Shown here piece by piece: positions 18,572 to 63,531 of a stretch of 64,000 nucleotides of DNA. A program made the position numbers and the translations under genes. Position 1 is the first letter of the stretch, and the number at the start of each line of letters is the position of its first letter. The notes below the pieces were generated by a model, which saw only the letters and a list, made by a program, of their open reading frames with translations, was not told the origin of the DNA and searched no databases. Source of the DNA: an uncultured Aquimarina sp. (lineage in GTDB: Bacteria; Bacteroidota; Bacteroidia; Flavobacteriales; Flavobacteriaceae); contig CANLEM010000001.1 in NCBI GenBank assembly GCA_947489685.1, forward strand, positions 744,001 to 808,000, in the 5' to 3' direction.

Positions 18572-18807
18572 GCTACGACGTTTCGACTATGGTTTGTAAG
18601 CGAATTAAAAGTAGTGAACTTTCGATTATGTACTTAGCGAAAACTTTTTATTTTGTTTTATTTTTTAGGGTAAAGCTAAATCAAATAGGTTTGATGAACT
18701 TAGTTTTAAGCTCTAATTTTCTTTAGAACAAGCATCACACCTTTCCAAAATACCATAACCATACAATCTGTTACTTAGCCGTTACGATCACATATCTAAT
18801 GTTGTAA
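18572..18807 (-). repeat. cassette-array repeat, long type B
   Basis: A long repeat between two minus-strand genes. It ends in the conserved GATCACATATCTAATGTTGT and contains the AAGCATC...CCAAAATACCATAACC block shared with the repeats at 46.7 and 60.9 kb. The outer arm CGACG/TTTCGACTATGG is degenerate. Confidence 0.6.
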
Positions 18808-18817
18808 AATGTATGTA

Positions 18818-19267
18818 TTAATACCTTTTCAATTTTTTCTCCATAAAAGTGCTTAACGGATCGTCTTTATATGAACCAAACTTTCCGCAGATTGAATATC
18901 CGAGTTTTTCATACAGTCTTATTGCATCTTTGGAATAAGGTCCAGTTTCTAATCTTGATAAGAATATGTTTTTTGAAATTAAGAGGGTTTCGAGTTTATC
19001 AATTATTTTTTTTGCTAACCCCTTTCTTCTCTGAGTAGGTGGAACATAAATTCTTTTTAATTCACCATAATCAGGAAAAATTTTCACAGAACCTATAGCA
19101 ACAATTTCCTCATTTTCGACAACTCCATAAAAATATACATTTTCATTTCGCAGCGTTTCAATACTGTCTAAATGACAACTATCAGGCGGATATAACTTAC
19201 TTTGATATTCATCTAATTCCTTTATTAGATTTTCTGCTTGTTTTGGATCTATAAGTTTTATTTCCAT
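18818..19267 (-). CDS. GNAT family N-acetyltransferase
   Basis: 149 residues. The acetyl-CoA loop is PPTQRRKGLAKKIIDKLE (RRKGLA) near 77-94 and the C-terminal strand LYEKLGYSICGKFGSY is typical of GNAT enzymes. Substrate unknown. The stop lies about 15 bases from a type B repeat, so it looks like a cassette gene. Confidence 0.85.
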   Translation of the reverse strand: MEIKLIDPKQAENLIKELDEYQSKLYPPDSCHLDSIETLRNENVYFYGVVENEEIVAIGSVKIFPDYGELKRIYVPPTQRRKGLAKKIIDKLETLLISKNIFLSRLETGPYSKDAIRLYEKLGYSICGKFGSYKDDPLSTFMEKKLKRY

Positions 19268-19313
19268 TGTATATTAAAGTAGTAACATCGGTTTTTGTTA
19301 TATGCGATATTTA

Positions 19314-19820
19314 TTATTTTTCTTTTAACGAATCTTTAGGTTCAGGATAGTTTCCTATATGCCATTCCCATTCCTTATTTTCAATCTGCAGGAATTTATT
19401 AAAATCTGTTGGTCCTTTGCGCTGATATTCCCGCCAAAATTTGATTTTTCCATTTTGGAGTTCAACGACTACGATTCCGACATCCGAAGTATCTTTTCCA
19501 TAACTGAAAGTGTATTCGGCTGCTCCTGATTGTGTATTTTTATTGAACCATAGATTATGGAATTCCATTTTGTATTTACTATCCAATTCGTCAAAGTAAG
19601 GTCTCAATTGTTTATGTCCTCGGTAATATTGAATATTAGGTGGTTCCATATAAATTGCATCTTCATCAAAACTACTAAGGGCTTTATTCGTATTTTGGGT
19701 AGACCAGCCTTCTGCTATATTTTCCATTAATTCATGGAATTCATTCTCAGAGATTTTGCTCTCAGAATTATTGCAAGCGACTAGAAAAAACAGGAATAAT
19801 ATAGAAATGCAATATTTCAT
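19314..19820 (-). CDS. lipoprotein with DUF4440/NTF2-like domain
   Basis: 168 residues. The lipobox FLVAC near 12-16 predicts a lipoprotein. The NTF2-like body reads IAEGWSTQNTNKALSSFDEDAIYMEPPNIQYYRGHKQLRPYF and ends with a Trp-rich EWEWHIGNYPEP tail. Role unknown. A cassette-type repeat lies just upstream of its start. Confidence 0.75.
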   Translation of the reverse strand: MKYCISILFLFFLVACNNSESKISENEFHELMENIAEGWSTQNTNKALSSFDEDAIYMEPPNIQYYRGHKQLRPYFDELDSKYKMEFHNLWFNKNTQSGAAEYTFSYGKDTSDVGIVVVELQNGKIKFWREYQRKGPTDFNKFLQIENKEWEWHIGNYPEPKDSLKEK

Positions 19821-19845
19821 TTGGTAACACTTTTTTCATATGATA

Positions 19846-19974
19846 CACAACGGTTAATATAAGAGTAGGAGCGGGTATGGATGTACTTATTTTCAGATAT
19901 CAAGATACTAAATAAAATACAATAGCGGTTCGAGCTTGCACCCGAACCGTTATTGGTTTTATACCTTGTTGGTA
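19846..19974 (-). repeat. cassette-array repeat, type D
   Basis: Begins CACAACGGTTAATAT and ends ATACCTTGTTGG, with AAC at 19849 and GTT at 19968. It holds an inner hairpin at 19921-19954. It separates a lipoprotein gene from a gene remnant. Confidence 0.75.
19921..19954. terminator. inner hairpin of the type D repeat, terminator-like
   Basis: AATAGCGGTTCG (19921-19932) pairs with CGAACCGTTATT (19943-19954) with one wobble, flanked by A and T runs on the two sides. Related hairpins occupy the same place in the repeats at 22.9, 35.4 and 45.5 kb. Confidence 0.55.
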
Positions 19975-20028
19975 ATAGTGTTTTTTTGTTCCTATGTGTT
20001 TATTCAATAATTAGCCAAAAAAACAAAT

Positions 20029-20211
20029 CTAGAAAGGAAAATTTACCTCTGTTTCCTTTTTTGCTAAGTCCCATAATTTGGTATTAAGTTTAGCGTCACT
20101 AGAATTACCATCCAACACACTTTTAGAAGCCTTTTCTAATTGCTTTTTGAATGATTTAGCTATTTGGGAATCTCTGTTACTTTCTTCAATGGGGTTGTAT
20201 AGACTAAAATT
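20029..20211 (-). pseudogene. C-terminal gene remnant, possibly short-chain dehydrogenase
   Basis: An open stretch of 60 codons without any start codon ends at a TAG at 20029-20031. The end, SSDAKLNTKLWDLAKKETEVNFPF, resembles the C-terminus of some short-chain dehydrogenases. It lies about 55 bases from a repeat end, where cassette genes normally stop. I read it as the tail of a decayed cassette gene. Confidence 0.5.
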
Positions 20212-20231
20212 TTATACGGTTTCCTCGATTA

Positions 20232-21209: not shown

Positions 21210-21223
21210 TTCGTTCAATTAGA

Positions 21224-21308
21224 TACAACGGTATCATGTAAGATTAGTTATGGGATGTTTAGTAAGAAACATCTTATTGTTGGTAATTAATTATACATGG
21301 TGTTGTTA
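21224..21308 (-). repeat. cassette-array repeat, type A (short form)
   Basis: Left end ATACAACGGTATCATGTAAG, inner box ATTAGTTAT; right end TAATTAATTATACATGG then TGTTGT. AAC at 21227 and GTT at 21302. Arms pair as in the other type A repeats. Confidence 0.8.
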
Positions 21309-22853: not shown

Positions 22854-22884
22854 TTTTTTTAGTGTTAATGTTTAGTAGAAGAGT

Positions 22885-22994
22885 GGTAACGGGTTAAGAT
22901 AAAGTATCTTTCCGTTATGCAATATACTTAATAAAAAGCAATACCGATTTGAATTAATATCCAAACCGGTATTGCTTTTATGCATTGGTATGTA
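22885..22994 (-). repeat. cassette-array repeat, type D
   Basis: Left end GGTAACGGGTTAAGAT; right end TTATGCATTGGTATG, where GTT has become GTA. The middle is occupied by the strong hairpin at 22934-22979. Confidence 0.65.
22934..22979. terminator. bidirectional intrinsic terminator inside a repeat
   Basis: AAAAGCAATACCG (22934-22946) pairs perfectly with CGGTATTGCTTTT (22967-22979); the stem extends by TTTG/CAAA. It carries A and T runs on the two flanks and lies 24 bases beyond the stop of the serine hydrolase gene that ends at 23003. Confidence 0.85.
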
Positions 22995-25959: not shown

Positions 25960-26088
25960 TATAACGATTTGCGCATGATTAGTTGCAAGAAAGTACGCGA
26001 GCACTTTCTGCTGTTGCTAAAGATAATTAATGCAAGTGAATTTTCGATTGAGAAATTTTGCCGCAATTAATTATATATGTTGTTAGCG
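25960..26088 (-). repeat. cassette-array repeat, type A
   Basis: Left end TATAACGATTTGCGCATGATT then AGTTGC; right end GCAATTAATTATATATG then TTGTTAGC. AAC at 25963 and GTT at 26082. An inner hairpin (GAAAGTACGCGAGCACTTTC) lies next to the left arm. Confidence 0.85.
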
Positions 26089-28839: not shown

Positions 28840-28966
28840 CACAACGGTTTGTATAAGATTAGTTGCGTGTTTTAAACAACTAATTTAGCAAATACAAACC
28901 GAATGAAAATCCATTAGATGTTTTGTAATTAGACTTGTAGAAGCAATTAATTTTATATGTTATTAT
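28840..28966 (-). repeat. cassette-array repeat, type A
   Basis: Left end CACAACGGTTTGTATAAG then ATTAGTTGC; right end GCAATTAATTTTATATG then TTATTA, so the right box is degraded. AAC at 28843. The left arm is almost identical to that at 60.1 kb. Confidence 0.85.
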
Positions 28967-29424
28967 ACGTTCGTTTTTAGTTGTAAATCTTTTGCAAGGC
29001 ATATGCTGTCCGGAATATTCTTTAGGATACCATATTTCTCTATAGCATTATAATTGTTTCTTCGATAAAGCTTACCAGCTTCAGGTTGTTTTGACCCCAT
29101 AAAGAGTATGCATCTAGAATATCCTAGTTCTTTAGACCAGTTTTCTAATTCAGATAAAATCTTCTCTCCAACTCTTTGACCTCTTGTTTCGGGTGATACA
29201 TACATTCTTTTAATCTCCATAGAATTAAAATTGTATTCAGAGATTGCTCCACAACCAATTGCTTTATCTTTTTTCAATGCTAAAACAACATAATTTAAAT
29301 TGGAGATGTCATTGAATTGAGATAAAGGATGAGTTTTACCGTCTCTTCCTGCAAGGTCTAAATTTAGAGATTGTACAAGTCTTTTAAATTCTGGATTTTG
29401 AGAATTTGTTCTTATTATTTTCAT
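28963..29424 (-). CDS. GNAT family N-acetyltransferase
   Basis: 153 residues. The acetyl-CoA loop SPETRGQRVGEKILSELE (RGQRVG) is near 77-94, and the C-terminal LYRRNNYNAIEKYGIL fits GNAT. FNSMEIKRMYVSPE is the usual strand before the loop. Substrate unknown. The stop codon lies at the edge of the type A repeat, again a cassette-like arrangement. Confidence 0.85.
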   Translation of the reverse strand: MKIIRTNSQNPEFKRLVQSLNLDLAGRDGKTHPLSQFNDISNLNYVVLALKKDKAIGCGAISEYNFNSMEIKRMYVSPETRGQRVGEKILSELENWSKELGYSRCILFMGSKQPEAGKLYRRNNYNAIEKYGILKNIPDSICLAKDLQLKTNV

Positions 29425-32844: not shown

Positions 32845-33092
32845 AGTAGATGTCTTTAGGGTTAGAAAAGATGTTTGACCTTAAAAGTAACGAATTAGTA
32901 TGAAAAATCTTATTTTAGAATACGATTTAGTTTTTAATGCCTTTGTCTTCATTACTCGTTCTAGTAAACTTTATTTCAATAAATACCAATGTAATTACTG
33001 TCTAGAAAATTGTCCATGCATTAGTAATAGATGTCCATTCCAAGAACTCTAGTTTCGTCTCAAATTTGCACTGTAACAAAAAACAAGAAAAG

Positions 33093-33812: not shown

Positions 33813-33823
33813 TTGCTATCTTT

Positions 33824-33852
33824 AGAAGGGAGTGTTGTAGGCACTCCTTTCT
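33824..33852 (+). terminator. intrinsic terminator
   Basis: AGAAGGGAGTG (33824-33834) pairs with CACTCCTTTCT (33842-33852) with one wobble and a 7-nt loop, followed by a T-rich stretch, 12 bases after the ABM gene. Confidence 0.8.
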
Positions 33853-33900
33853 TTATATTACTGAATAGTTGTACAGAAGGTGGACAAAGATTAAATTATT

Positions 33901-39577: not shown

Positions 39578-39709
39578 TACAACGTCTGGGCTATGAGTAG
39601 TTGTATGAGTAATGTCCTTAACTTTGAAAGTATACGGCAAGCTTAAAATCCTCCGCGAGGATTTTAGGAGTATATAAGAATAAACAATTACTTATAGTCA
39701 CCGTTGTAC
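39578..39709 (-). repeat. cassette-array repeat, type A
   Basis: Left end TACAACGTCTGGGCTATGAG; right end CAATTACTTATAGTCACCG then TTGTAC. AAC at 39581, GTT at 39703. An inner hairpin AAAATCCTCCGCGAGGATTTT is perfect. The VOC gene stop lies inside the right arm. Confidence 0.85.
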
Positions 39710-42203: not shown

Positions 42204-42329
42204 TACAACGTCTAGGCTATGAGTAGTTACGTGATTTAGCAATTAACTTTGAAAATACGTACTGAGTTAGGAATTCTTCGGGAATTCCTAAAATATGCGA
42301 GTAGAAGCAATTACGTATAGCCATTGTAG
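42204..42329 (-). repeat. cassette-array repeat, type A
   Basis: Left end TATACAACGTCTAGGCTATG; right end GCAATTACGTATAGCCATTG then TAGTAC. AAC at 42207; the right box is GTA at 42326. The left arm GGCTAT pairs with ATAGCC. An inner hairpin GGAATTCTTCGGGAATTCC is present. Confidence 0.85.
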
Positions 42330-42334
42330 TACAG

Positions 42335-45375: not shown

Positions 45376-45507
45376 AGCTACCGGTCTCAACTATGAGTAG
45401 TTGCAGAATTTACACAACTACTTTTTAGTTTACAATATACTTTAATAAAATGAGATAGCCGTTCGAGATAGCACCTCAACCGCTATTGCTTATACATCGT
45501 GTTAGCC
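45376..45507 (-). repeat. cassette-array repeat, type D
   Basis: Left end GCTACCGGTCTCAACTATG then AGTAGTTGC; right end TTATACATCGTGTTAGCC with GTT at 45501. The inner hairpin ATAGCCGTTCGAG / CTCAACCGCTAT resembles those of the other type D repeats. Confidence 0.8.
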
Positions 45508-45525
45508 ACCGGCATTATCTTATAC

Positions 45526-45912
45526 CTAACTTAAAACATCAATCAGACAAAAAGTATTTGCAACACCTAATATAATTTCAAATAAAATTCCTTGAGTAAT
45601 TTGTTTATTCGGTTTTCCATCAACTTTTAGACTTATTAACCTACCGATTGCGAAACCTATAAAAATTAATGCAGCGACTAAATGCGAATTAAAAGTTAGT
45701 TTTTCGATAAATGTTCCAAGTGAAATAATGATTCCTGCAAAAAGCATTACTGCAGCAACTCCTCTCATTTCATTTAATAAACTAACATCATTTTCAAGTT
45801 TAATCCCAGAACTTTTTGAATAAGTCTTTATTGGGTTGCTTAATCTCATTACACCGACAAATACAAGCATTAAAGCTGATAATGATAAGACTACAATTCT
45901 GATAATTTCCAT
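45526..45912 (-). CDS. DUF4345 membrane protein
   Basis: 128 residues with four membrane helices. MRLSNPIKTYSKSSGIKLENDVSLLNEMRGVAAVMLFAGIII is the conserved DUF4345 segment, with the NEMRG motif near 46-50. Function unknown. The WYL regulator lies 68 bases upstream in the same direction and may regulate it. Confidence 0.8.
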   Translation of the reverse strand: MEIIRIVVLSLSALMLVFVGVMRLSNPIKTYSKSSGIKLENDVSLLNEMRGVAAVMLFAGIIISLGTFIEKLTFNSHLVAALIFIGFAIGRLISLKVDGKPNKQITQGILFEIILGVANTFCLIDVLS

Positions 45913-45980
45913 TTTTAGATTTTTTAATTATTATATCCGCAAATGTAAATTGGAGTTGCGACAAGGTTATGTCAAGGGTA

Positions 45981-46682
45981 TTATTGATTTTTCACATATT
46001 TTTCAAAATACTCCTTTATAGTCATATTATGAGGACTAAATGTTTCATTTTTAGTAATAATATTTTTAATGTAATCTATTCTGAAATGCCTAAAATCATT
46101 TCTTAATTGACAAAAAGCTACTAATAAAAAATCTCCGTGAATACTATAAATTGCAAAAGGTTCAATACTTCGAGTAGTTTGTTTCTTTTCAGAAGAAATG
46201 TAATCTATTGTTAATATTTTATATTGGGTAATAGCCGATTGTATTTGCATCAGATTATTACTTGTTTTTTCTTCGTTATTATTACCACTAAAGTAAATTC
46301 TCTCTGCTAATAAATCAGCATTTCCTTTTTGAGAATAACGTAATATAGCTTTGATTTTTTCTAATGCACTAGAAATGTTATCAACTAATGATTGGTCTTT
46401 GTTTTTTATTGCTAATTGTTCTATCGTAATTAAAGCGTTGGCTTCGTCCTCTGTAAAAAGAACAGGTGGGAGGTGATACCCTTCCATAATTGAATAGCCT
46501 TTTCCTTCTTCGGTTACAATAGGAATTCCTGATTTTTCAAGAGTTCGGATATCTCTATAAATGGTTCTTAAACTCACATTATGCTTTTCAGCGAGTTGTC
46601 TTGCTGTAATAATTCTTTTGGATTGCAATTGGGTAAGAATAGCAGTTAATCTCGAAAGTCTTGGTTTTTCTTTTTCTTCCAT
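45981..46682 (-). CDS. WYL-domain transcriptional regulator (YafY-like)
   Basis: 233 residues. The N-terminal HTH (RLTAILTQLQSKRIITARQLAEKHNVSLRTIYRDIRTLE) is of the HTH_11 type. The WYL region has KILTIDYISSEKKQTTRSIEPFAIYSIHGDFLLVAFC near 150-190. The family senses small ligands or nucleic acids. It is paired with the DUF4345 gene. Confidence 0.85.
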   Translation of the reverse strand: MEEKEKPRLSRLTAILTQLQSKRIITARQLAEKHNVSLRTIYRDIRTLEKSGIPIVTEEGKGYSIMEGYHLPPVLFTEDEANALITIEQLAIKNKDQSLVDNISSALEKIKAILRYSQKGNADLLAERIYFSGNNNEEKTSNNLMQIQSAITQYKILTIDYISSEKKQTTRSIEPFAIYSIHGDFLLVAFCQLRNDFRHFRIDYIKNIITKNETFSPHNMTIKEYFEKYVKNQ

Positions 46683-46702
46683 TTTCGTGTTTTCTGCTTG
46701 TG

Positions 46703-46873
46703 GTTAACGGTTAGTGTATGTGTCGTAGCAAAGCAAAATGTTAACAAACCATTGACTTTTTCTGTGTTTTGGTTGCTGATTTTTACTTTTTGTAAGCATT
46801 GCGCCATACCAAAAATACAACAACCTTTCGATTCGTCACTTAATTGCTATGATCACATATATAGTGTTGTAGC
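46703..46873 (-). repeat. cassette-array repeat, long type B
   Basis: Left end GTTAACGGTTAGTGTATG, right end GATCACATATATAGTGTTGT, with AAC at 46706 and GTT at 46866. Most of its length matches the repeat at 60.87 kb, including TTGGTTGCT, TTTTTACTTTTTG and AACCTTTCGATTC. Confidence 0.85.
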
Positions 46874-49975: not shown

Positions 49976-50037
49976 ACAAATAATTTACTAATCACAGGCA
50001 CGACAACTTCTGTAATGCCTATTTAAAACGAAATATT

Positions 50038-51090
50038 ATGATTATTACATGGAACACAGACCCCTCAAAAGGAACTTTTGCACCTGGTAGTGGTAAATAC
50101 TCTTCTTATTACCAGTACGATACCGTATCGGGAAAATTTGTTAGAGTTAGATTGGAACTAGGAAGAGCAGCGAGTCAATCAGGAGGAGATTCAGGAGGAA
50201 CAGGTGCTTTTTTTACAGAAAAAAGATATGTCGGATTTGGACCGTCGGATAGTGCAAGAACTTCTCAACCTACAAGATGGAGTATTAATGACAAAGGAGA
50301 ACTTTGTTTTGATGGTGCAGCATTAGCTACTAAGCCTTCAGCTGGTTTAACTACTTTTGACACTTCTTCAACTACTTTTACAGATAGTACATTTATACAC
50401 AGAGGAAATCCAGTAACTGAAACACCGAACTATCCTGAAGGAATTAGAGCTGCCCACCTAAGTTTAATTGCCAATGATGCAATTATTAATCAGGCTTCTA
50501 CAAGAAACATCACAGCCGCAACAGCATCCTCTGATGATTTAATTGCAGCTTTAAAAACAAAAATAGGTGTTATTGTAGACAAACCTTTCGCCGAAATAAC
50601 GAATGATGATTTACTTGCCTGTCTTAAAACTCAAGTTGCTCAAATAAAAACAGAATCAATTGCTCCTTCAAAAGAATCATTAGATTCTTGCCTTGATACT
50701 GTTGATGAACTTATCGAGGGTATTAAATCTGAAATTAGGGATAAAGGATTAGTTCCTGATGAAGATTTTACTGCTGCCTTTGACGATTTGGCGGCTAAAT
50801 ATGAAGCTGCAAAAACCGCATCAGCAACTGGAAAAGATGTTTCTAAATCTATAAAAGAATTAAGTGAAGCAAAAACTGCTTTGAATAAAGCAGTAACAAC
50901 AATAGATGAACAACATCAAGCTTCTTTAGAAAATCAACTTGATGCTTCTGAAGTAGCAATTGAAGCAGCTCAAATCGACAGTGAAACTTGGGAAGGTATC
51001 GACTCAGAATATGAAGAAGCTGAAAAATCTACCTCTCTTGACGAATACGAAGAAAGCATTGGCAACGACGAAGTTGTTGAAGCTAGATAA
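50038..51090 (+). CDS. protein with N-terminal beta domain and acidic helical tail
   Basis: 350 residues, family unknown, no signal peptide. Residues 1-150 are rich in Gly, Ser, Thr and Tyr and beta-like (MIITWNTDPSKGTFAPGSGK; KRYVGFGPSDSARTSQPTRW). From 160 on the protein is helical, with coiled-coil stretches and an acidic C-terminus (EEAEKSTSLDEYEESIGND), similar in style to the tail of its upstream neighbour. It is spaced 62 bases from that gene, with a spacer related to the next one. Confidence 0.6.
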   Translation: MIITWNTDPSKGTFAPGSGKYSSYYQYDTVSGKFVRVRLELGRAASQSGGDSGGTGAFFTEKRYVGFGPSDSARTSQPTRWSINDKGELCFDGAALATKPSAGLTTFDTSSTTFTDSTFIHRGNPVTETPNYPEGIRAAHLSLIANDAIINQASTRNITAATASSDDLIAALKTKIGVIVDKPFAEITNDDLLACLKTQVAQIKTESIAPSKESLDSCLDTVDELIEGIKSEIRDKGLVPDEDFTAAFDDLAAKYEAAKTASATGKDVSKSIKELSEAKTALNKAVTTIDEQHQASLENQLDASEVAIEAAQIDSETWEGIDSEYEEAEKSTSLDEYEESIGNDEVVEAR

Positions 51091-51157
51091 CATTTATTAA
51101 TCAGGGGCATGCAACTAGTGAAAAGCAACTAGTCCTTGTACTTATAAAAATCAAATT

Positions 51158-51475
51158 ATGACTTATCCAAAAATTACAATTAAAAATTCGTTAAAGGATA
51201 GCGTTGTCGTATACGATGCATTTCAAAACGACGCAAAAGATAAAAATCTGTCCAATTTTTTTGGAACATTAACAAGTATCTCTAATGTTGCAGCAGATGG
51301 AAGCGAAGTTTTCGAACCAATACATGGTCCACTTTCGACTTACATCATTTACGATGGTAAATACAATCCAATTAAAAGAGTATTTACTATAGGAACAAAA
51401 GCCGAAAGTTTTACTGTTACCGATGCAGATGTCGCAATAATGACATCAACTAATGCATTTATTAAACTTTTATAA
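51158..51475 (+). CDS. N-terminal part of a large protein cut by an in-frame stop
   Basis: 105 codons ending at TAA 51473-51475. The frame stays open beyond the stop to 53719. The product begins like the gene at 48287 (PKITIKNSLKDSVVVYDAF against PQVKITNKLSYSIDIYDVF), and the homology continues past the stop codon. I therefore regard it as the 5' piece of one interrupted 853-codon gene rather than a separate short gene. Confidence 0.6.
   Translation: MTYPKITIKNSLKDSVVVYDAFQNDAKDKNLSNFFGTLTSISNVAADGSEVFEPIHGPLSTYIIYDGKYNPIKRVFTIGTKAESFTVTDADVAIMTSTNAFIKLL
51473..51475 (+). other. in-frame TAA interrupting a large gene
   Basis: The codon lies between IKLL and NTPTDPQ in a frame that is otherwise open for 2.5 kb. 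It aligns with a sense codon in the homologous domain of the gene at 48287. It may be a real mutation, a read-through site or a sequencing error. Confidence 0.7.
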
Positions 51476-51604
51476 AACACACCAACCGATCCTCAGGCTG
51501 TTTCTTTCCAAAAAATCATTAAAAATGGAAAGGGAACTGCTGAAAAAATAAATACTTTTTTCAAAGGAACAACCGATTACAAAACCTGTACTTTTATTTC
51601 GTAC

Positions 51605-53719
51605 ATGTTAGCTTCTGTAGCAATAGCACGTACTCCGGCTACCAAAAACAAGCCACCACAAGAGCAAGTGTATAGCTTAAGTAGTTTGGTTAAGTCCATG
51701 GGGTTCGATTGGCCTTCCGGAATTCCGGATATCACTATATCCAACTTTAACTGTTCGGAAAACGCAGAAGCAATCATGATTGGCGGAAAATTAAACATCA
51801 ATGATGTAACGCTTGCCGATGGTGTATTAGCTCATGTTCTTTCATTCTTACCAAGTCCAGAAATCACATTTGGAGTAGAGTTTGTATACAATGATGGCTT
51901 AGCAACAGGTTCAACTTGTTTTAAATTCACATTGGATAATATTAAAATTCCAATTGGAAATGGTAAAACATTCGACATTGATCAGCCTACTATTTTATTA
52001 AGTCTTAACCCATTATTTAAGTTTGTAGTATTCGAAGTAAAAGCTGAAATACCATTTAGCATTTTTAAGAGTCCAACAATTGATGCTGATATAGCGATGA
52101 CAATCGATAATATTGAAGCCGAAGTTGGTGTAGAACTTAAGGGAAACACCTCAAGTTTGTTGACTCCTCCTGGAGTTAAAGGTTTACATTTTGATACTTT
52201 TGGAGTAGGCTTAGGTGTAATTTTTGAACCACCAGGGTTTGCAATTGGTGTAGAGGGAACTTTCCATATAGGAAACGCGGGAGAAGTACCTTTAAATGAT
52301 GATAAATTTGCCATTATTTGCGAAATGGAAGAAGAAGTACCTAACCCAGTCTATCTTTCGTTCTATATTCCAAAATTAGATTTAAGTGAGGTTATTACAC
52401 TTTTTACTAATACTACAATAGATTTAGATTTCCCTGTTTCATTCCAAGACCTTTCGGTAACATGGGCAGAAAATTTAATGGAGCCTCTTGTACTACCTGA
52501 TGGCTCATTAACAAAAATGGGATACGGATTTAGTGCTTACATGGATATTTTTGGACTTCAATTTTACGGTTTCTTGCAAATTGACTTAACTTCTGGGGTA
52601 TCAGGAGATATTACCATGTCGCCATTAAGCTTTGGAAGTTTATTGAAATTATCAGGTAACGGAAAAACCATTGATTTAAAATACGGATCAAATGGGAAAC
52701 CAATACCAAATAATACAATTCCTAAAACAGCTGCTGAAAAAAAGGCTATTGCTAGTGCTAGCTCTAAGCAAATAATCGCTGCAGGTGGGCCTTCAATGAC
52801 GTTAAGTACTTCTTCTTCACCTTACTTTTCATTAGATGCTGAAATTAGTTTATTTGAACTGATCAACGAAAAAATAGATGCTACAATTAGTAAAGATGGT
52901 ATTTCATTTGAACTTGATTATGGTGCGGTCATGCAAACTAAAATGCAATGTACGCTAGAAGATTATCATAACTTCTCTGGAAAATTTACTTATGGCATTG
53001 ATTTAGACATACCATTACCTAGCATTGCTGGTTTTAGTCTAGGATCAATCGATCTAGATGCGGGGTGTGATTTAGGTTTAGCTATTTCGACATCTACTTC
53101 TGATGTAAGGTTTGGTGTTCAAGGAGGATTTAATTTTGAAGATTTAGACTTAAACTTTGGTCCTTTTGAGGCTGATGTAAATATTTCATCCATTTCAGGT
53201 TTAATTGATGCTGTGGGTAAATATGTGTTAGCTCACGCAGGTGATATATTCAAAGCATTTATTTCAAATGCATCCAAATGGGCTGAATTTGTGAAAAACG
53301 AGGTTATTAAAGGGGTTAAAGATGTTGCTCAAGGTTTAAAAACGGCGTTTGATCAATCAGCAACTGAAGTTGCTTCGATAATGCATGGTGTTGGATATGG
53401 AGTTGATGAAATTGCGTCAGGAATTCAAAGTGCATTTTCGGCATCTGCTAATGAAATTGCTACAGCATTAAAAGATGGACTTGGAGCCTCTGACACGGTA
53501 GTAACAGGTGCTTTAAAAGGTATTGGTTTTGGTGCACAAGATATCGCTACTGCTCTTAATTCGGTATTTGGCTTAGCACCAACAGCTATCAAGGATATCT
53601 TAAGTGCGGCTGGTTTTGCTGATAGCGCCATTGAAAGTGCTTTTAACGCCATTGGTGGAGCATTTGCAAGTGCTGCCAAAAGTATTTGGCATGCAGTGAC
53701 TCATTGGGATCACTGGTAG
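51605..53719 (+). CDS. C-terminal part of the interrupted gene: beta-rich body and amphipathic helix repeats
   Basis: 704 residues from the internal ATG at 51605; the same frame is open from 51476, and the ATG has no A-rich leader. The first 30 residues complete the domain shared with the gene at 48287. About 40-530 is a long beta-rich body of amphipathic strands (FGVGLGVIFEPPGFAIGVEG; GYGFSAYMDIFGLQFYGFL). From about 560 there are helical repeats of roughly 22 residues with GFGAQDIATALNSVFGLA-like units, ending in WHAVTHWDHW. No signal peptide. A lipid- or membrane-binding function is possible; the family is unknown to me. Confidence 0.65.
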   Translation: MLASVAIARTPATKNKPPQEQVYSLSSLVKSMGFDWPSGIPDITISNFNCSENAEAIMIGGKLNINDVTLADGVLAHVLSFLPSPEITFGVEFVYNDGLATGSTCFKFTLDNIKIPIGNGKTFDIDQPTILLSLNPLFKFVVFEVKAEIPFSIFKSPTIDADIAMTIDNIEAEVGVELKGNTSSLLTPPGVKGLHFDTFGVGLGVIFEPPGFAIGVEGTFHIGNAGEVPLNDDKFAIICEMEEEVPNPVYLSFYIPKLDLSEVITLFTNTTIDLDFPVSFQDLSVTWAENLMEPLVLPDGSLTKMGYGFSAYMDIFGLQFYGFLQIDLTSGVSGDITMSPLSFGSLLKLSGNGKTIDLKYGSNGKPIPNNTIPKTAAEKKAIASASSKQIIAAGGPSMTLSTSSSPYFSLDAEISLFELINEKIDATISKDGISFELDYGAVMQTKMQCTLEDYHNFSGKFTYGIDLDIPLPSIAGFSLGSIDLDAGCDLGLAISTSTSDVRFGVQGGFNFEDLDLNFGPFEADVNISSISGLIDAVGKYVLAHAGDIFKAFISNASKWAEFVKNEVIKGVKDVAQGLKTAFDQSATEVASIMHGVGYGVDEIASGIQSAFSASANEIATALKDGLGASDTVVTGALKGIGFGAQDIATALNSVFGLAPTAIKDILSAAGFADSAIESAFNAIGGAFASAAKSIWHAVTHWDHW

Positions 53720-53740
53720 AAATACAACTATACATTTCAT

Positions 53741-53768
53741 TCGGTGTGATTCATTAGAGTCACACCGA
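53741..53768 (+). terminator. hairpin after the helix-repeat gene
   Basis: TCGGTGTGA (53741-53749) pairs perfectly with TCACACCGA (53760-53768) across a 10-nt loop. It lies 22 bases after the stop. No long T tract follows, so termination may be partial. Confidence 0.55.
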
Positions 53769-53801
53769 TATACTAAATTAAGTCGTCTTATAACATCACT
53801 T

Positions 53802-54590
53802 ATGAAACAAAGTAAAAACGAAATATTAGCATATAATTCTTTTAATTTATTAAATCAATTACATGATCCCAAAGCAAAACAATATTTAGAATGGTCTGTT
53901 ACTTTAACCGCAGATAAGTTTGAGTTTCGTAATAAACCTACGCTATATGTTTACCCAAATGAAGATTTTAATGCGTATCAAAACTTAAATAAGCTACTTC
54001 ATAAGTTAAATTGCCCAGAGGAGCTAATCCAAATACATGAACATTCTTTCGCCACATCAATGTATCAAGGTATAAGAATACCTGATATAAACCTACTTGA
54101 AAAATGCCTGTATATTCACCATGAAGGCGTCTCTCATATTGATTGTTACCGCTGGGAAAATCAAATGCATTATGAAAATTGTAATTATGTTTATCATAAA
54201 AGTTTTGATTTAAATAATACTTTTTCTATGACCCATAGCGATTTAACGCCTTTTTTGGAAAAGTTATTCAAGGCAGAACAATTTGTTCATCACTTTGGGG
54301 TTTGGTTTCAAGAAAGTAAAGAAGAAATACGTGAAGTTTATTATTCTTTTCCGAATAGAACTCGGTTTAATTGGGTAGTTAAGGCTTTTGAAAATTTGTT
54401 GAATAAGGATGTATATCAAAAATCTTCAAAATTCAGAAATTTTAAGTTTAAAAATATAGGTTTTGATAGTACGCTACAACAAAATTCTCCTGCAATTACA
54501 ATTTATTTTACGCTTCCGATTACAGAAAAATTTCCAAACGATTACAAAGAATTAATAAGATCTTGTTCTGATTTATTTGATGAAAACTAA
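53802..54590 (+). CDS. protein of unknown function, last gene of the plus-strand island
   Basis: 262 residues, cytosolic, rich in aromatic residues and histidine (YIHHEGVSHIDCYRWENQMHYENCNY; QFVHHFGVWFQESKEE). I recognise no domain. It follows the interrupted gene by 82 bases on the same strand. It could be a chaperone, immunity or accessory protein of the island, but nothing in the sequence proves this. Confidence 0.55.
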   Translation: MKQSKNEILAYNSFNLLNQLHDPKAKQYLEWSVTLTADKFEFRNKPTLYVYPNEDFNAYQNLNKLLHKLNCPEELIQIHEHSFATSMYQGIRIPDINLLEKCLYIHHEGVSHIDCYRWENQMHYENCNYVYHKSFDLNNTFSMTHSDLTPFLEKLFKAEQFVHHFGVWFQESKEEIREVYYSFPNRTRFNWVVKAFENLLNKDVYQKSSKFRNFKFKNIGFDSTLQQNSPAITIYFTLPITEKFPNDYKELIRSCSDLFDEN

Positions 54591-54649
54591 TATGATAATT
54601 GAGGCTTTAATGTTTCTAAAGTTATATTAAAACACCTAAAATTAGGCAT

Positions 54650-54778
54650 GACGATCTAGTTTATGAGTAGTAGCGGACTTCTACTCACAAATCTTTTGGT
54701 TTTACACAGACCTTTATTTTATGCTTATACTTTTGTTTTATCATTTAAACCGCTATTTCTTATACACATTGTTAGCTG
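54650..54778 (-). repeat. cassette-array repeat, type C
   Basis: Matches the repeat at 37.15 kb along most of its length: GAGTAGTAG, TTCTACTCAC, then GACCTTTATTTTATG and TTATACTTTTGTTTTATCA. Ends TTATACACATTGTTAGC with GTT at 54771. It marks the resumption of the array after the plus-strand island. Confidence 0.8.
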
Positions 54779-55455: not shown

Positions 55456-55525
55456 TGCAACGCGTTTGTGTATGATTAGTTGGCATTGACATATTTTGAC
55501 AATTAACTATACACATTGTTGTGTA
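55456..55525 (-). repeat. cassette-array repeat, short type
   Basis: Left end GCAACGCGTTTGTGTATG then ATTAGTTG; right end CAATTAACTATACACATTG then TTGTG. AAC at 55459, GTT at 55518. The arms pair over GTGTAT-ATTA-TTG, with the outer spacer unpaired. Confidence 0.85.
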
Positions 55526-58158: not shown

Positions 58159-58292
58159 GAGAACGGTTTGTGTATGGTTTCGTTGCGTGTTTGAGCAACT
58201 AATTTAGTGAATAAACACAAATGAGAGAAAATTCATTAGGAATTCTCCAAATACGTACTTGCCAAAGCAATTAATTATACACGGTGTTAGCT
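58159..58292 (-). repeat. cassette-array repeat, type A
   Basis: Left end GAGAACGGTTTGTGTATGG; right end GCAATTAATTATACACGG then TGTTAGC. AAC at 58162, GTT at 58286. The TAA stop of the next gene is formed by the right outer box itself (GTTA on the plus strand). Confidence 0.9.
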
Positions 58293-58973
58293 GTAGTTTT
58301 TTATCAATTCAGACAAAGAATTTAATTCCAATATTTTATCAAGGTATTTTCCTCTACTGCTATTTACACGTTGATAAGGAGCAAATAGATTTGAAACTTC
58401 ATTAAATTCATTATTCAAAGCGTATAGTTTTTCTTTGTCACTATCTGATAATTTTTTCTCACGGTGTTTTTTATTAAATTCAATTAATCTTTTAACAGCT
58501 ATTTCTTTTTTAGCAATTTCAGCTCCGGTTGCGTTTAATGTGCAAATCCCATAAATTCCTTGGAGAAAGTATAGCCATTCTTGTTCAAATGCTAAATTCA
58601 ATTTCTCCATATTTACACTTCCGTCTTCTTCTATTATGTTGTCATAACCGAAGCTGTTGTGATTACTATTAACAAAAGTATTTATAAATTCTATTTTCAA
58701 TGATTCCTTGAATTTAGATGAATTATTCGCATTTTTATTCTTTTGTATTAAAGCGATTACACTTTTTGGATAGTATTTTTTGACTTCAGAAATTATCTTT
58801 TCGTCACCAAGTGGAGAATTAATTGTATAGGTTGCATTAATTTCATAAGAACTATTAGGGACTAATTCATTGTCAATTAATGTTTGTAAATCTTGATTAG
58901 AAATGCCTGACATTTCACATAATTCATTTGATTCGATAAAATATTCTTCAATGTATTTAATATCAATATCCAT
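58287..58973 (-). CDS. DUF6058-like protein
   Basis: 228 residues, cytosolic. MDIDIKYIEEYFIESNELCEMSGISNQDLQTLIDNELVPN looks like a helix-turn-helix start, and NLAFEQEWLYFLQGIYGICTLNATGAEIAKKE is conserved in a family I recall as DUF6058. The function is unknown. Its stop codon overlaps the outer box of the repeat, a cassette-like fusion. Confidence 0.6.
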   Translation of the reverse strand: MDIDIKYIEEYFIESNELCEMSGISNQDLQTLIDNELVPNSSYEINATYTINSPLGDEKIISEVKKYYPKSVIALIQKNKNANNSSKFKESLKIEFINTFVNSNHNSFGYDNIIEEDGSVNMEKLNLAFEQEWLYFLQGIYGICTLNATGAEIAKKEIAVKRLIEFNKKHREKKLSDSDKEKLYALNNEFNEVSNLFAPYQRVNSSRGKYLDKILELNSLSELIKNYS

Positions 58974-58999: not shown

Positions 59000-59134
59000 G
59001 CTAACGGTTTGTGCATGATTAGTTGCGCGTCTCTCGCAACTAAAATAGCAAAAGGAAACCGAACCTTAGGAAAATCCTACGGATTTTCCGAGTACAGATA
59101 TACCCAAGCAATTAATTAGACACGGTGTTACACA
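59000..59134 (-). repeat. cassette-array repeat, type A
   Basis: Left end GCTAACGGTTTGTGCATG then ATTAGTTGCG; right end GCAATTAATTAGACACGG then TGTTACAC. AAC at 59003, GTT at 59127. An inner hairpin GGAAAATCCTACGGATTTTCC is almost perfect. Confidence 0.9.
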
Positions 59135-59144: not shown

Positions 59145-60056
59145 TCAGAATATTACTTTGGTTTTAGGCAATTCGTCTTGTATTCGTAGCTTTTCCTTTT
59201 CAGAAAACTTATTCTTGCTTAATTCTAGTACTTTGAGAGATGAGAATGCATTCAAGTCGCTTGGAAGACTCTTTAAATTGTTGTTTCTTAATAAAAGGAC
59301 TTTTAAATTCATTAGATCATGCAATTGCAAGCTTAAATCTTTTATTGAAAGGTTTGGGTTATTATCAAGTACCAAGCCTTCGATTTGTTTTAATTCATTA
59401 AGGTTTTCAGGAAATGTCTTCAAATTGTTATCAGACATTACAAGAATTCTAAGAGATTCAACTTTAGAGACAACTTGAAAAACCTGTTTAAAATTAAGTC
59501 CTGGATTATTGTCTAAATGAAGCTCTTTTAACTTTTTTATATTAGATAATCCAACAGGAAGTTCTGTAAGTTTATTTCCACTTAGGTAAAGGAAATCTAA
59601 ATTTTCGATATGAGATAAAACTTTGAAGGCTTGTTCAAAATCGAGTTTATTATTTTCGGCTAAGTCAATTTCTCTAAGATTAGAAAAACCAATTAGCAAT
59701 TCAGGTAATTCATGGAAGTTATTATTCCTTAAATTTAACACAGAAAGCATCTCTAATTTTAGTAATTCAACAGGTAATGTAGATAAATGATTTCCTTGAA
59801 TATTTAGTAATGTCAATTCCTGTAAAACTTCCAATCCTTTTGGTAATTCTGTCAATTTACAGTGAGTCAAATAGAGCGACCTAATATGAGGTAATTCTTT
59901 AATACTATTTGAAAACTGCGATAGTTCTTCACAGTTTAAGTCCAACCATTTTACTTTTTCAGTTTCTTCAAGTGCTGTTGAGAACGAAGAATATTTTTCA
60001 TTCTGGGAAATACTTGTTAAAGGAAGAAATAAAATTAGAATTAGTATAGACTTCAT
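59145..60056 (-). CDS. secreted leucine-rich repeat protein
   Basis: 303 residues with a signal peptide ending near TSISQ (17). About ten leucine-rich repeats of 22-25 residues fill the rest, with units such as LTELPKGLEVLQELTLLNIQGNHL and LKTFPENLNELKQIEGLVLDNN. The repeats vary in length, some carrying NNPGLNFKQVFQV insertions. It is probably a periplasmic or surface binding protein. It stands alone between two type A repeats. Confidence 0.85.
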   Translation of the reverse strand: MKSILILILFLPLTSISQNEKYSSFSTALEETEKVKWLDLNCEELSQFSNSIKELPHIRSLYLTHCKLTELPKGLEVLQELTLLNIQGNHLSTLPVELLKLEMLSVLNLRNNNFHELPELLIGFSNLREIDLAENNKLDFEQAFKVLSHIENLDFLYLSGNKLTELPVGLSNIKKLKELHLDNNPGLNFKQVFQVVSKVESLRILVMSDNNLKTFPENLNELKQIEGLVLDNNPNLSIKDLSLQLHDLMNLKVLLLRNNNLKSLPSDLNAFSSLKVLELSKNKFSEKEKLRIQDELPKTKVIF

Positions 60057-60072: not shown

Positions 60073-60203
60073 TGTAACGTTTTTGTATAAGATTAGTTAC
60101 GTGTTTTAAGCAACTAATTTAGCAAATACAAACCGAATAGAAAATCTGCGAGGATTTTCGTAAGCAAGCAAGTAGTAGCGATGAATTATTCGCGGTGTTG
60201 TAC
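60073..60203 (-). repeat. cassette-array repeat, type A
   Basis: Left end TGTAACGTTTTTGTATAAG then ATTAGTTACG; right end AGCGATGAATTATTCGCGG then TGTTGTAC. AAC at 60076, GTT at 60197. The body shares GCAACTAATTTAGCAAATAC and ACCGAAT with the repeat at 28.84 kb. Confidence 0.9.
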
Positions 60204-60212: not shown

Positions 60213-60845
60213 TTATTTCAGAATTGTTTTTAGTTCACTAAAGTCAGTTATACAATGTTTAGCATATTCAGATTTTTCTTGCCCGAATTTTGAAACTTGA
60301 ATTGTATTTAAATCGAGTTCAAATCCTGCTTTTAATTCCGAATTGGGATTGTCTCCAATTACATAAATTAAATTAGGATTAATGTTCTTTTTTAAAAGGA
60401 TGCTTTTAAAAATTCCTTTCTTATGAATTCTTTTTGGGTCAAGTATGTCGTCAATATAAATTTCGCCAAATTCTTTTTCTATTCCTAAATCACGAATTTT
60501 GGCATTTTGTAATTTCAAAAATCCAGTCGTTACTAATATTTTTTCTTGTAGTAAATTTTGAACAATTCCAAAATCTTCGAAGGTTTTGATATTCAGTTGA
60601 TATTCATATTCATTTACTAGACTTGCAAATTCTGAATTCAGCTTATTGTCGAATTTATATTTTTGAGCTACAAAATCAAATGGAAACTTCCATAATTCAG
60701 GAACGATTTTTTCGGTCATTTCCTTTCCATATCTTTTTGTCAATAAACTCTCAAACTTGTCAAAAATGGGTTTAACTGACTTTTCACTAATTGATTTTGT
60801 TTCAAAAAGAGTGTCGTCTAAATCGAAAATTAATAATTGATTCAT
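60213..60845 (-). CDS. HAD-superfamily hydrolase
   Basis: 210 residues. Motif I is FDLDDTLF (D8, D10); motif II is LVTTG; motif III is the lysine in KKGIFKSIL; motif IV is VIGDNPNSE. The cap lies between motifs I and II, as in class I phosphatases such as phosphoglycolate-phosphatase-like enzymes. Substrate unknown. A single-gene unit between repeats. Confidence 0.85.
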   Translation of the reverse strand: MNQLLIFDLDDTLFETKSISEKSVKPIFDKFESLLTKRYGKEMTEKIVPELWKFPFDFVAQKYKFDNKLNSEFASLVNEYEYQLNIKTFEDFGIVQNLLQEKILVTTGFLKLQNAKIRDLGIEKEFGEIYIDDILDPKRIHKKGIFKSILLKKNINPNLIYVIGDNPNSELKAGFELDLNTIQVSKFGQEKSEYAKHCITDFSELKTILK

Positions 60846-60873
60846 TTAATTTGAGTCGGTTCTTTGGCTTACG

Positions 60874-61045
60874 TATGACGTTTCATATATGTGTCGTAGC
60901 TGTGCAAATTGTTACCCAACTCTCGACATTATCGGTGTATTGGTTGCTAATTTTTACTTTTTGCAAGCATTTTGCCTTACCAAAAATACAAGAACCTTTC
61001 GATTCATCACTTAACTACTATGATCACATATATGGTATTGTATGC
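60874..61045 (-). repeat. cassette-array repeat, long type B
   Basis: Left end ATGACGTTTCATATATGTG, right end GATCACATATATGGTATTG. The body is closely similar to that at 46.70 kb (TGTGTCGTAGC, TTGGTTGCTAATTTTTAC, AACCTTTCGATTC). Outer boxes are degraded (GAC and GTA). Confidence 0.8.
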
Positions 61046-61051
61046 TGGTTT

Positions 61052-61639: not shown

Positions 61640-61846
61640 TTTTTCTGTTTTATTTGTTCAGAATAAAACTAATTCTAATGTTGTTGGTTTGGTTGCGTCA
61701 ATATTATGTCATCTTTACGTCATCTGTGCAATTCAACTTTAACCTTGTTTAATTTATAAAAACCTAGCGCCGTTGCAAAAAGGAAATGACTTAATGAACT
61801 AGCACTAAATTGCTCTGATTTTATATATAATACCAGCAACTGGCAT

Positions 61847-62389
61847 TTATTCATTCAGTATTTTTTGGATATCCTTTTGCACACTTATTTGTGTTCTGAT
61901 TAATTCTTCCATCATTAATTTTAATATGACTTTTTCTTTTTTACCTGTTTCAGTTAAGTTGGAGTAGATGAAGTCCAAAAGTTTATTCAGTTTGTACTTT
62001 AAAAGTTCATTTCCTTCTTCTATATCTGTCAAAATAGATAATTTATCATATTCAACCAACTCTATTTTTGAATTCGATAGTGCATTCCAGTAATTAAGTT
62101 TAATACGTGGACCATTAACTCCTCCTGCTTTTTCAATCACTACAAGTAAAGATAATGTTTCGTTGTTCGAGTAAAAATCAAGAGAGTCTACTAATGCCTT
62201 TTGGTATGGGATTTTTTCGGTTATTTCTTTATCCGTATCCTTAAATTCCTTTACTAAAGATATATAGAAGTTGTCAATATACTTTCTGTCTTTTCTTTCT
62301 TCGTTCCAATTGTCAATCCATAAAGCGATTAATACACCTAATAAAACTGGAATAATGTCCTTAACAAACGTTTTGAAATTATTTTTCAT
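61847..62389 (-). CDS. DUF6090-like single-pass membrane protein
   Basis: 180 residues. The N-terminal VKDIIPVLLGVLIALWIDNWNEERKDRKYIDNFYISLVKEF is the signature of a family found widely in marine Bacteroidota (DUF6090): one membrane helix, a conserved NWNE, then a helical periplasmic part. Function unknown. It is followed by a spacer and the XRE gene, and preceded by a 67-bp repeat. Confidence 0.8.
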   Translation of the reverse strand: MKNNFKTFVKDIIPVLLGVLIALWIDNWNEERKDRKYIDNFYISLVKEFKDTDKEITEKIPYQKALVDSLDFYSNNETLSLLVVIEKAGGVNGPRIKLNYWNALSNSKIELVEYDKLSILTDIEEGNELLKYKLNKLLDFIYSNLTETGKKEKVILKLMMEELIRTQISVQKDIQKILNE

Positions 62390-62412
62390 TTCTTCGTTGT
62401 GTTCTGATTGTT

Positions 62413-62479
62413 GCTAACGTTCCGGCTAAAAAGCGTTGCTGTCCCGCAGGCAGTTATGATTTTTAGCCATTGTTGGTTG
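62413..62479 (-). repeat. cassette-array repeat, short type with clear two-box arms
   Basis: Outer box GCTAACG (62413-62419); inner box GGCTAAAAA (62424-62432) pairs perfectly with TTTTTAGCC (62460-62468); outer GTTGG at 62472. The spacers between outer and inner boxes (TTCC and ATT) do not match. This is the cleanest example of the attC-like plan. Confidence 0.9.
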
Positions 62480-62487
62480 TAGTTTTT

Positions 62488-63390
62488 TTATGTTTTTAAT
62501 CGTTTGTCAAACCAATCAATTACCAATTGATTTAATTCATTTTTATATTCTGTAAAATAGTGGTCGGTTTGGTAATTTTTCAATTCAAAGTCGTAATTAA
62601 CTTCAGTTAATTTTTTTGCGATTATGTCTGCTTGTTTTGGATTCACTCTTTTGTCATTAGTTCCACATAAAATTAAAAGGCTACTGCTTTTGTCTAATTC
62701 ATTTGTCCAATAAACTACCGAACGTTTTTTTAATTCAGATTCTTTATTATCCTGATAATTTGGCACACATTCCGCAATAACTTTGGATTCCATTTCTGGT
62801 CTGTCAGAGATTAGTCCAAACAAATCGGTTGGTCCATTTCCGACAATAGCTGTTACTATCTTGTCCGATTTTTGCAGAGCAAGATAAGTCATCATTCCGC
62901 CTCTTGACCAACCAAACATTCCTATACAATTTGGGTCGGCCCTATCAATTTCTTTGACAGTTTCTGTTAAATTTAGTACATCGTTTATTTCTGCTCCACC
63001 AAATTCATCTTTTTCCCGATAGTTACTACCAATTATTACGTAACCTTGTTCAGCTAATTTGGAAGCGTACATAATTAAAGTACCGACAGTTAATTGTGAA
63101 AAATCTCTATTTCCACCACGATTAAAAATTACAACAGGATATTTTCCGTTCTCTTTAGGTTCGATTACTATTCCACGAACTTTTAGGCTGTCACTTTGGT
63201 AAGTGATGAAATAAAAGTCTAATTTATTCAGATGTTTAAAGTTAGAATATAGTTGACCATCTTGTGAAATCCTATTCCAAATTGGCGTTTTTGAAATGTC
63301 TACTAATTTTTTCGATAAAATTTTTCCATTTTGGCTAAAACCAATGCTTATAAAAAGTATAAAGATTATCGATGTTAAGACTTTGTTCAT
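62488..63390 (-). CDS. secreted alpha/beta hydrolase, S9-peptidase-like
   Basis: 300 residues with a signal peptide ending near GFSQ (20). The nucleophile motif GWSRGG has Ser162; the acid is in CGTNDKRVNPKQ and the histidine in YQTDHYF. NRGGNRDF near 90-97 is the oxyanion strand. It resembles the catalytic domain of prolyl oligopeptidases without the propeller. Likely a periplasmic esterase or peptidase. Bounded by repeats. Confidence 0.8.
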   Translation of the reverse strand: MNKVLTSIIFILFISIGFSQNGKILSKKLVDISKTPIWNRISQDGQLYSNFKHLNKLDFYFITYQSDSLKVRGIVIEPKENGKYPVVIFNRGGNRDFSQLTVGTLIMYASKLAEQGYVIIGSNYREKDEFGGAEINDVLNLTETVKEIDRADPNCIGMFGWSRGGMMTYLALQKSDKIVTAIVGNGPTDLFGLISDRPEMESKVIAECVPNYQDNKESELKKRSVVYWTNELDKSSSLLILCGTNDKRVNPKQADIIAKKLTEVNYDFELKNYQTDHYFTEYKNELNQLVIDWFDKRLKT

Positions 63391-63408
63391 TTGTTAAGTT
63401 AAATTACA

Positions 63409-63526
63409 GCTAGCGTGTTTGTGTATGGTTAGTTGTGATGTTAAGCAACTAATTTAGTAAACTATCACGAACTGGAGAAAATTCCGAAGGCACTTTCCAA
63501 GCAATTAATTATACACGGTGTTAGCA
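63409..63526 (-). repeat. cassette-array repeat, type A
   Basis: Left end GCTAGCGTGTTTGTGTATGG; right end GCAATTAATTATACACGG then TGTTAGC. GTT at 63520; the left box is AGC instead of AAC. Arms pair over GTGTAT and TTAGTTG. Confidence 0.9.
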
Positions 63527-63531
63527 ACAGT

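Follow-up and report, generated by a model that had tools for sequence, protein, structure and literature searches.

Integron-like gene cassettes behind a tyrosine recombinase without the integrase-specific domain: a recombinase-less array in Aquimarina and its counterparts across the Flavobacteriaceae

We analyzed a 64,000-nucleotide stretch from the draft genome of an uncultured Aquimarina sp. (assembly GCA_947489685.1, 4.7 Mb in 74 contigs; G000:C1:744001-808000, hereafter the window), in which mostly single genes alternate with imperfect palindromic repeats resembling the attC sites of integrons. We hold with high confidence that the window contains part of an integron-like cassette system, a stretch that lacks a recombinase and is probably old; the system is widespread in the family Flavobacteriaceae and present in other Bacteroidota. 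The system appears, on sequence grounds, to resemble the integron in its working while lying outside the integron definition: it is not an integron as defined because its recombinase carries no additional domain and none of 199 family genomes passes the model for the integron integrase IntI. Integrons are thought to be rare in Bacteroidota, and rows of cassettes headed by such a recombinase may explain how flavobacteria and their relatives take up loose genes, including a few that confer drug resistance.

A sequence-only reading of the window had described about 28 repeats between positions 18572 and 63530, separating genes nearly all on the minus strand, with no recombinase in view, and most of this description held. 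A weight-matrix scan seeded with the window's own repeats, with pairing also scored, returned 28 minus-strand matches above a score of 30 (0 or 1 in five Markov shuffles) and 28 above 26 (0, 1, 1, 4 and 4 in the shuffles); plus-strand matches numbered 12 (>26) and 9 (>30), as expected if palindromes are read both ways. A calibrated covariance model trained on sites from other genomes (R2) found 17 sites of 65-169 bases in the window at an expectation value (E) <= 0.05, all 17 on the minus strand and 16 within 18572-63530. A palindrome scan demanding strict pairing gave 7 minus-strand matches at >=33, against 0, 0 and 4 in shuffles, and was dropped as too strict because the sites contain A.C mismatches. 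Among 46 non-overlapping open reading frames (ORFs) of at least 80 aa picked in the same interval, 39 are on the minus strand and 7 on the plus strand, and 36 of the 40 proteins scanned have a Pfam match (E <= 0.001). The families bear out the gene content listed from sequence alone and include GNAT, VOC, DinB, DUF1801, DUF2071, SnoaL, cupin, HAD and a lone phosphonate-binding protein. The window has no Rfam match at gathering scores, and a tRNA search of it found none. The window indeed contains no recombinase. The limits of the array had been drawn too narrowly: one site lies to the left at 9622-9742, and two more follow the right edge of the window (C1:808982-809046 and C1:812290-812418). 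Scoring 150 of thousands of candidates, we count at least 12 sites in the whole genome with model R1 and at least 25 with R2. The sites and cassette genes placed in the window are as follows.

63409..63525, minus strand: attC-like site (R2 58.9 bits, E 1.4e-11)
62488..63390, minus strand: cassette gene, Peptidase_S9/BD-FAE-like hydrolase (Pfam)
62413..62477, minus strand: attC-like site, short form, clean hairpin (R1 56.6 bits, an R1 training site; R2 39.2 bits)
60873..61042, minus strand: attC-like site, long type of about 170 bases (hand-placed from its two arms; absent from the R2 list at E <= 0.05)
60213..60845, minus strand: cassette gene, HAD-like hydrolase (Pfam)
60073..60202, minus strand: attC-like site (R2 45.5 bits, E 2.5e-8)
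59145..60056, minus strand: cassette gene, leucine-rich repeat protein (Pfam; cassette ends match 7/7)
59000..59132, minus strand: attC-like site (R2 61.3 bits, E 3.7e-12)
58287..58973, minus strand: cassette gene, DUF6058 (Pfam; cassette ends match 7/7)
58159..58291, minus strand: attC-like site (R2 77.2 bits, E 5.2e-16)
55456..55523, minus strand: attC-like site, short form (R2 56.0 bits, E 7.3e-11)
54647..54776, minus strand: attC-like site (R2 44.9 bits, E 3.6e-8)
46703..46871, minus strand: attC-like site, long type (R2 30.9 bits, E 8.9e-5)
45382..46707, minus strand: two-gene cassette, WYL-type regulator and DUF4345 (88%/79% identical in G484/G485; ends match 5/7)
45377..45506, minus strand: attC-like site with decayed GTT (R2 43.1 bits, E 9.8e-8)
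42204..42331, minus strand: attC-like site (R2 67.1 bits, E 1.5e-13)
39578..39708, minus strand: attC-like site (R2 58.8 bits, E 1.5e-11)
28840..28967, minus strand: attC-like site (R2 74.3 bits, E 2.6e-15)
25960..26087, minus strand: attC-like site (R2 52.2 bits, E 6e-10)
22864..22992, minus strand: weak attC-like site (R2 20.0 bits, E 0.039)
21224..21307, minus strand: attC-like site, short form (R2 48.1 bits, E 6.1e-9)
19846..19973, minus strand: attC-like site (R2 49.7 bits, E 2.5e-9)
9622..9742, minus strand: attC-like site left of the interval first described (R2 29.2 bits, E 2.3e-4)

Two groups of plus-strand genes, at 48287-54590 and 33066-34758, break the array; Pfam gave no match for the 562-aa protein encoded at 48287. 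Minus-strand genes, long gaps and weak site-like remains occupy 9622-18572, possibly a decayed portion of the array. A megablast search of window positions 18572-43530 against plasmids gave no match.

Read along the coding strand, a site opens with an outer box ending in AAC and closes with GTT; between these, an inner box of some 16 bases stands on either side of a loop, separated from AAC by a spacer of mostly 2-3 bases and from GTT by one of mostly 4-6 bases. The 281 sites collected from arrays are mostly 120-139 bases long, with smaller groups near 50-79 and 190-199 bases. They share the anatomy of attC: inverted outer and inner boxes, an unpaired spacer, a variable terminal part and a putative crossover at G|TT. 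In 149 distinct sites (from the best 150 of 266, in an alignment fitted to the structure being tested), 83.6% of cells pair, compared with 68.2% when shuffled and at most 34.9% when slid, while 487 cells have changed on both sides, compared with 181 and at most 97, respectively. One column pair is non-standard in 148 of the 149, and bulges were seen by eye in some sites. The commonest mismatch of the inner stem on the top (coding) strand is A.C, with 583 cases against 32 of G.T, so that most mismatches become G.T pairs on the bottom strand. When only the arms are folded, the bottom strand has the greater stability in 257 of 267 sites and the top strand in 8, with the 14 of 281 sites that have fewer than 10 Watson-Crick pairs left out. 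Such a preference is what would be predicted if the folded bottom strand were the substrate of recombination, as passages of PMC2727003 describe for attC. Selection against hairpins in mRNA could be an added source of the asymmetry.

A cassette begins with TT-N7-ATTT and a leader some 15-30 bases long; then come the gene (usually a single one), AAAC-N7'-AAC and an imperfect palindrome, in most cases of 128-133 bases, with G as its last base. N7' denotes the reverse complement of N7. When the 7 bases before the AAC of each site are compared with the reverse complement of those after the GTT of the preceding site, at least 6 of 7 agree in 218 of 239 pairs. The corresponding counts were 14 of 276 for the two sides of a single site, 8 of 239 when the following site was used and 237 of 7954 for random sites (AAC and GTT were required in register, which kept 276 of the 281 sites and left out 5). 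The match extends to 14 bases with one regular difference eight bases out, C (239/276) versus T (274/276). Matching inverted 7-mers at the two ends of a cassette place the crossover at G|TT. The canonical consensus RYYYAAC/GTTRRRY does not hold, the second base before AAC being a pyrimidine in 92 of 276 sites. The box first described as GTT followed by a purine is only partly right: the bases after GTT are cassette-specific, and the variable part of the outer boxes is longer than in canonical attC. The 231 delimited cassettes have a median length of 789 bases, and from G|TT to the first ATG of the longest ORF the median is 28 bases; the longest ORF is on the site's strand in 217, and 190 of these contain one ORF of 60 aa or more.

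Cassettes are also copied with these edges. Near-identical copies within one array occur at L053, L071 and L080 (99.6-100%) and at L083 (99.7% over 86% of the length), in a comparison in which 25 of 34 rows are listed. The complete ones have both edges at offset 0 from G|TT or, for the cassette in first place at L053 and at L080, a start at the attI-like point described below. Older copies with the same edges are 92% (L060), 86% (a second array of the window genome, on contig C3) and 91% identical (between two arrays of G056); some pairs at 81-83% identity have edges off by up to 7 bases. Only two whole-cassette matches at >=75% were found between genera, one with an exact left edge, and recent transfer between genera is weakly shown. 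In the window, the two-gene cassette at 45.4-46.7 kb recurs at 88% and 79% identity in two genomes of the same genus with different neighbors; the 88% match continues across the preceding site and ends at its far end, and the 79% match begins at the spacer before GTT. The rest of the 19.7 kb stretch compared matches the genus relatives mainly in its sites, with a few weaker single-gene matches. Gene order, whose conservation had been named as counting against a cassette array, is not kept between species of the genus over the stretch tested.

Single-gene units carrying inverted repeats at their ends, with copies recurring within one genome, might also be small transposable elements that have terminal inverted repeats and depend on some unrelated transposase, the recombinase being a mere neighbor. 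We consider this very unlikely: the variable end part differs between units, which leaves no fixed end to recognize, and the units, arranged head to tail, occupy one strand behind a single recombinase family, with edges meeting in a shared GTT.

That recombinase family was found through the window genome itself. Among its seven matches to the phage-integrase family, one (P0001; L002:892-2019) is a tyrosine recombinase of 375 aa on contig C3, which heads a second, cleaner array: a G|TT point lies no more than 50 bases past its stop and is followed by well-formed sites on the same strand. This arrangement, and the cassette copies cut at G|TT, fit the proposal that the window holds a sedentary, Bacteroidota-type cassette array with its enzyme elsewhere. 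Around other recombinases of the genome, five loci are free of sites over about 1.5 kb. Salinimicrobium and Flavivirga have the closest named relatives of P0001 (63%). Of the 198 other family genomes, 32 are listed with near full-length relatives at 54-66% identity, one of them interrupted by an internal stop, and more distant relatives are common there. In 40 loci around relatives 37-65% identical, extending up to 13 kb downstream and only 1.1-2.4 kb upstream, R1 placed 146 of 146 sites on the recombinase strand and 146 of 146 downstream. R2, which was built from sites in the same loci and is not independent of them, found 266 sites (E <= 1e-6), spread over 33 of the 34 loci on which it was run; together with four R1 sites, 270 of 270 are on the recombinase's strand. 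The other six loci (L054, L056, L074, L075, L078 and L079) are on contigs ending within 210 bases of the recombinase gene. These draft contigs stop 166-208 bases past it, just beyond the attI-like site, as if assemblies break there.

At E <= 0.001, sites are present in 178 of 199 family genomes. They occur in 124 of the 125 genomes with a P0001 match at E <= 1e-45, a threshold chosen after seeing the data, and in 54 of the 74 without one (Fisher p 6e-9); arrays without a close recombinase, like that of the window, are therefore common. Across the phylum, 102 of 296 genomes have sites, and 42 of 148 genomes of the order have P0001 relatives at E <= 1e-45. Site numbers per genome were counted up to 17 in the survey of 199 and up to 11 in that of 296, with stricter filters. 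The complete genome G159 has at least 124 sites among the 150 candidates scored: 74, 33 and 10 lie in arrays behind three recombinases, all 117 on the matching strand, and 7 elsewhere. The covariance-model search proposed from sequence alone finds sites mostly in arrays at gene boundaries. The same counts bear on the view that the repeats are elements like repetitive extragenic palindromes or bacterial interspersed mosaic elements, or RNA elements such as terminators or mRNA stabilizers, with no role in mobility. The repeats do fold and are located just 3' of genes. However, random spread of this kind, or of the kind seen with miniature inverted-repeat transposable elements, does not agree with 117 of 124 sites in three arrays or with 217 of 231 longest ORFs on the site's strand; the better-pairing arm strand is the non-coding one, the matching ends belong to one gene unit rather than to two sides of one repeat, and single-gene units are copied with exact edges. 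We regard a purely structural or regulatory origin of the repeats as extremely improbable.

A GTT-N7-A point near the recombinase stop was marked in 41 of 41 loci, not always convincingly. Within 100 bases past the stop, 25 of the 41 loci have a palindrome with arms of at least 8 bases, compared with 4.5% of shuffles; it is often perfect, with the first GTT-N7 usually a few bases further, and at L053, one of the 25, it spans its own GTT. At L053 and L080, the cassette that begins immediately after the recombinase is identical (100%) to one located further along the array. The arrays have an attI-like site beside the recombinase, where the first cassette would be joined.

P0001 is neither an IntI nor a host Xer protein. 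The distance between the GKGxKxR and HxLRH motifs is 58-59 residues in 33 rows of its family (one row with an internal stop was left out), 100-101 in three integron integrases, 63-69 in four Xer-type rows and 59-61 in three other integrases. In the region of the additional domain, alignment to IntI4 (2A3V) gives 22 residues in the recombinase against 65 in IntI4, and the family is without the IntI-specific additional domain. The XerD gene of the window genome, which scores above its cut-off, and its XerC-like gene are separate from P0001 (L001, L004), and neither locus has attC-like sites nearby. In a tree drawn open, the P0001 family forks with IntI, apart from Xer (88/92). Most of its rows have about 100 extra N-terminal residues compared with IntI. 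In seven relatives these 100 residues match no convincing Pfam family at E <= 5, giving chance-level rows only, and in the predicted structure (mean predicted local distance difference test score 77) the part is modeled as strand-strand-helix-strand-strand-helix; comparison of the model with the PDB covered mainly residues 102-373. On account of its motifs we considered a HARP-like DNA-fork-binding domain, an idea supported by no tool result. Proteins of 305 aa at L080-L082 have no such extension, yet head arrays.

An IntI overlooked by the search would make these arrays standard integrons, whose layout they share, and IntI is reported in Bacteroidota in passages of PMC9024848 and PMC2426708. 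P0001 scores 196 bits against the IntI model TIGR02249, below its cut-off of 265, and 0 of 199 family genomes have a match at E <= 1e-60 or above the cut-off, a result that is weak alone, as 14 control genomes are equally silent. The absence of the additional domain from the array-heading recombinase contradicts a standard integron for the headed arrays tested, and we consider an overlooked IntI extremely unlikely. The integron-type layout recognized from sequence alone stands; the enzyme is not an IntI.

In the cassette system that we propose, the recombinase would bring two sites together at G|TT and so cut out the cassette between them. Within the resulting circle, the N7 and N7' ends would pair and lengthen the hairpin, and the folded bottom strand would then be recombined into the attI-like site or another site, so that cassettes enter in one orientation. 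The array of the window would be served in trans by the C3 recombinase, as we infer, or would be a relic. We think it reasonably probable, with less assurance than for the reading of the window itself, that these arrays form a second, widespread class of cassette-capturing systems parallel to integrons. This class would recognize folded single-stranded DNA without the additional domain of IntI, would be the main cassette platform of Bacteroidota, and would likely be the first home of some escaped resistance genes such as tet(X3).

Several observations weigh against this account. In the window array, ends match 7/7 in only 2 of 8 neighboring pairs and 5/7 in 2 more, and the attI-like point of P0001's own C3 locus has no palindrome. 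When whole sites were folded as DNA with their loops, the bottom strand was lower in 13 of 21, showing no clear strand preference, which we think is due to the dominance of long loops. Eight of the 231 cassettes have their longest ORF on the opposite strand and six have no ORF of 50 aa. In 21 further loci, 18 of 22 matches are on the homolog's strand and 4 are not, three of these by a 37% homolog (L096) and one read on both strands (L100). At E <= 1e-45, 54 of the 178 site-bearing genomes lack any P0001 relative; conversely, a single genome possesses a relative yet shows no site. Most genera were represented by one genome.

The arrays share with IntI integrons, including sedentary chromosomal ones and clusters of attC sites lacking an integrase (CALIN), head-to-tail single-gene cassettes with a folded 3' site, a G|TT crossover, an attI-like site at the head, favored bottom-strand pairing, a variable terminal loop, an unpaired spacer between outer and inner stems, and arrays that vary between species, some without an integrase. 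They differ in a recombinase that lacks the additional domain and in most rows carries an N-terminal extension of about 100 residues, its gene lying in the orientation of the cassettes; in cassette-specific 7-mer outer boxes with a 14-nt end match rather than RYYYAAC/GTTRRRY; in fixed A.C positions in the inner stem; and in an attI-like site that is often palindromic. We take a reverse-oriented IntI of Spirochaetota to be an integrase that reads with its cassettes, as the P0001 family does; Spirochaetota integrons use a true IntI, unlike the arrays here. Passages of PMC9668308 describe typical Spirochaetota (Treponema) IntIs as having this reverse orientation. The integron-like subgroup of simple tyrosine recombinases of Smyshlyaev et al. 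2021 (PMC8138268) is akin in that the P0001 family forks with IntI, apart from Xer; the passages on that subgroup describe no cassette arrays of this family. The relevant passage on IntegronFinder 2.0 mentions one complete integron in Bacteroidetes proper, in Salinibacter ruber (PMC9024848), and passages elsewhere list Bacteroidota or the Bacteroidetes/Chlorobi group among integron bearers (PMC9668308, PMC8618304, PMC2426708). In a full-text search of open-licence literature, no title or abstract beginning among the matches listed describes such a system. A close likeness lies in the description of one unit: aph(3')-IVb of Riemerella, with a 27 bp 5' leader (median 28 bases in the cassettes here), the gene and a 140 bp attC-like 3' region, is inserted into the chromosome without homology, by a mechanism which the authors leave open in a section that names no recombinase (PMC13148043, 2026).

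If our reading is true, most genera of the family (178 of 199 genomes sampled) bear cassette sites that may have been missed because current definitions rest on the additional domain of IntI and on canonical attC. Homology-free gene capture, as reported in Riemerella, would further gain an enzyme family and a model of its sites; the reading would also offer a natural test of the purpose of the additional domain and open a large unexplored set of cassette genes.

On plasmids pHH1107 (L097:5043-7064) and pJAT2044 (L101:2967-4988), tet(X3) lies directly behind a recombinase gene named tpnF, also called xerD, at the position of a first cassette and, by eye, behind an attI-like palindrome. The tpnF/xerD product is a truncated relative of P0001, 53% identical over P0001 residues 146-375 and with the same 58-residue gap. 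By eye, an apparent 5' half-site follows the gene at these two loci, where R2 scored no site. The association of xerD with tet(X3) has been described before, and the passages that treat it draw no link to cassette arrays (PMC8635130).

A dense array of about 20 sites lies in the single-contig genome G071 (L111; G071:C1:1461001-1480000), whose best P0001 match reaches only E 6.5e-33, with no relative within the 19 kb of the locus. A contig labeled Syntrophaceae (L090:1003-11769) carries, along with a recombinase of the P0001 family, three sites on the same strand, a hint that the system extends past Bacteroidota or that the contig is mislabeled. At L105 and L106, integrase relatives that likewise have no IntI insertion and branch beside IntI stand directly before an IS91-family or other transposase gene.

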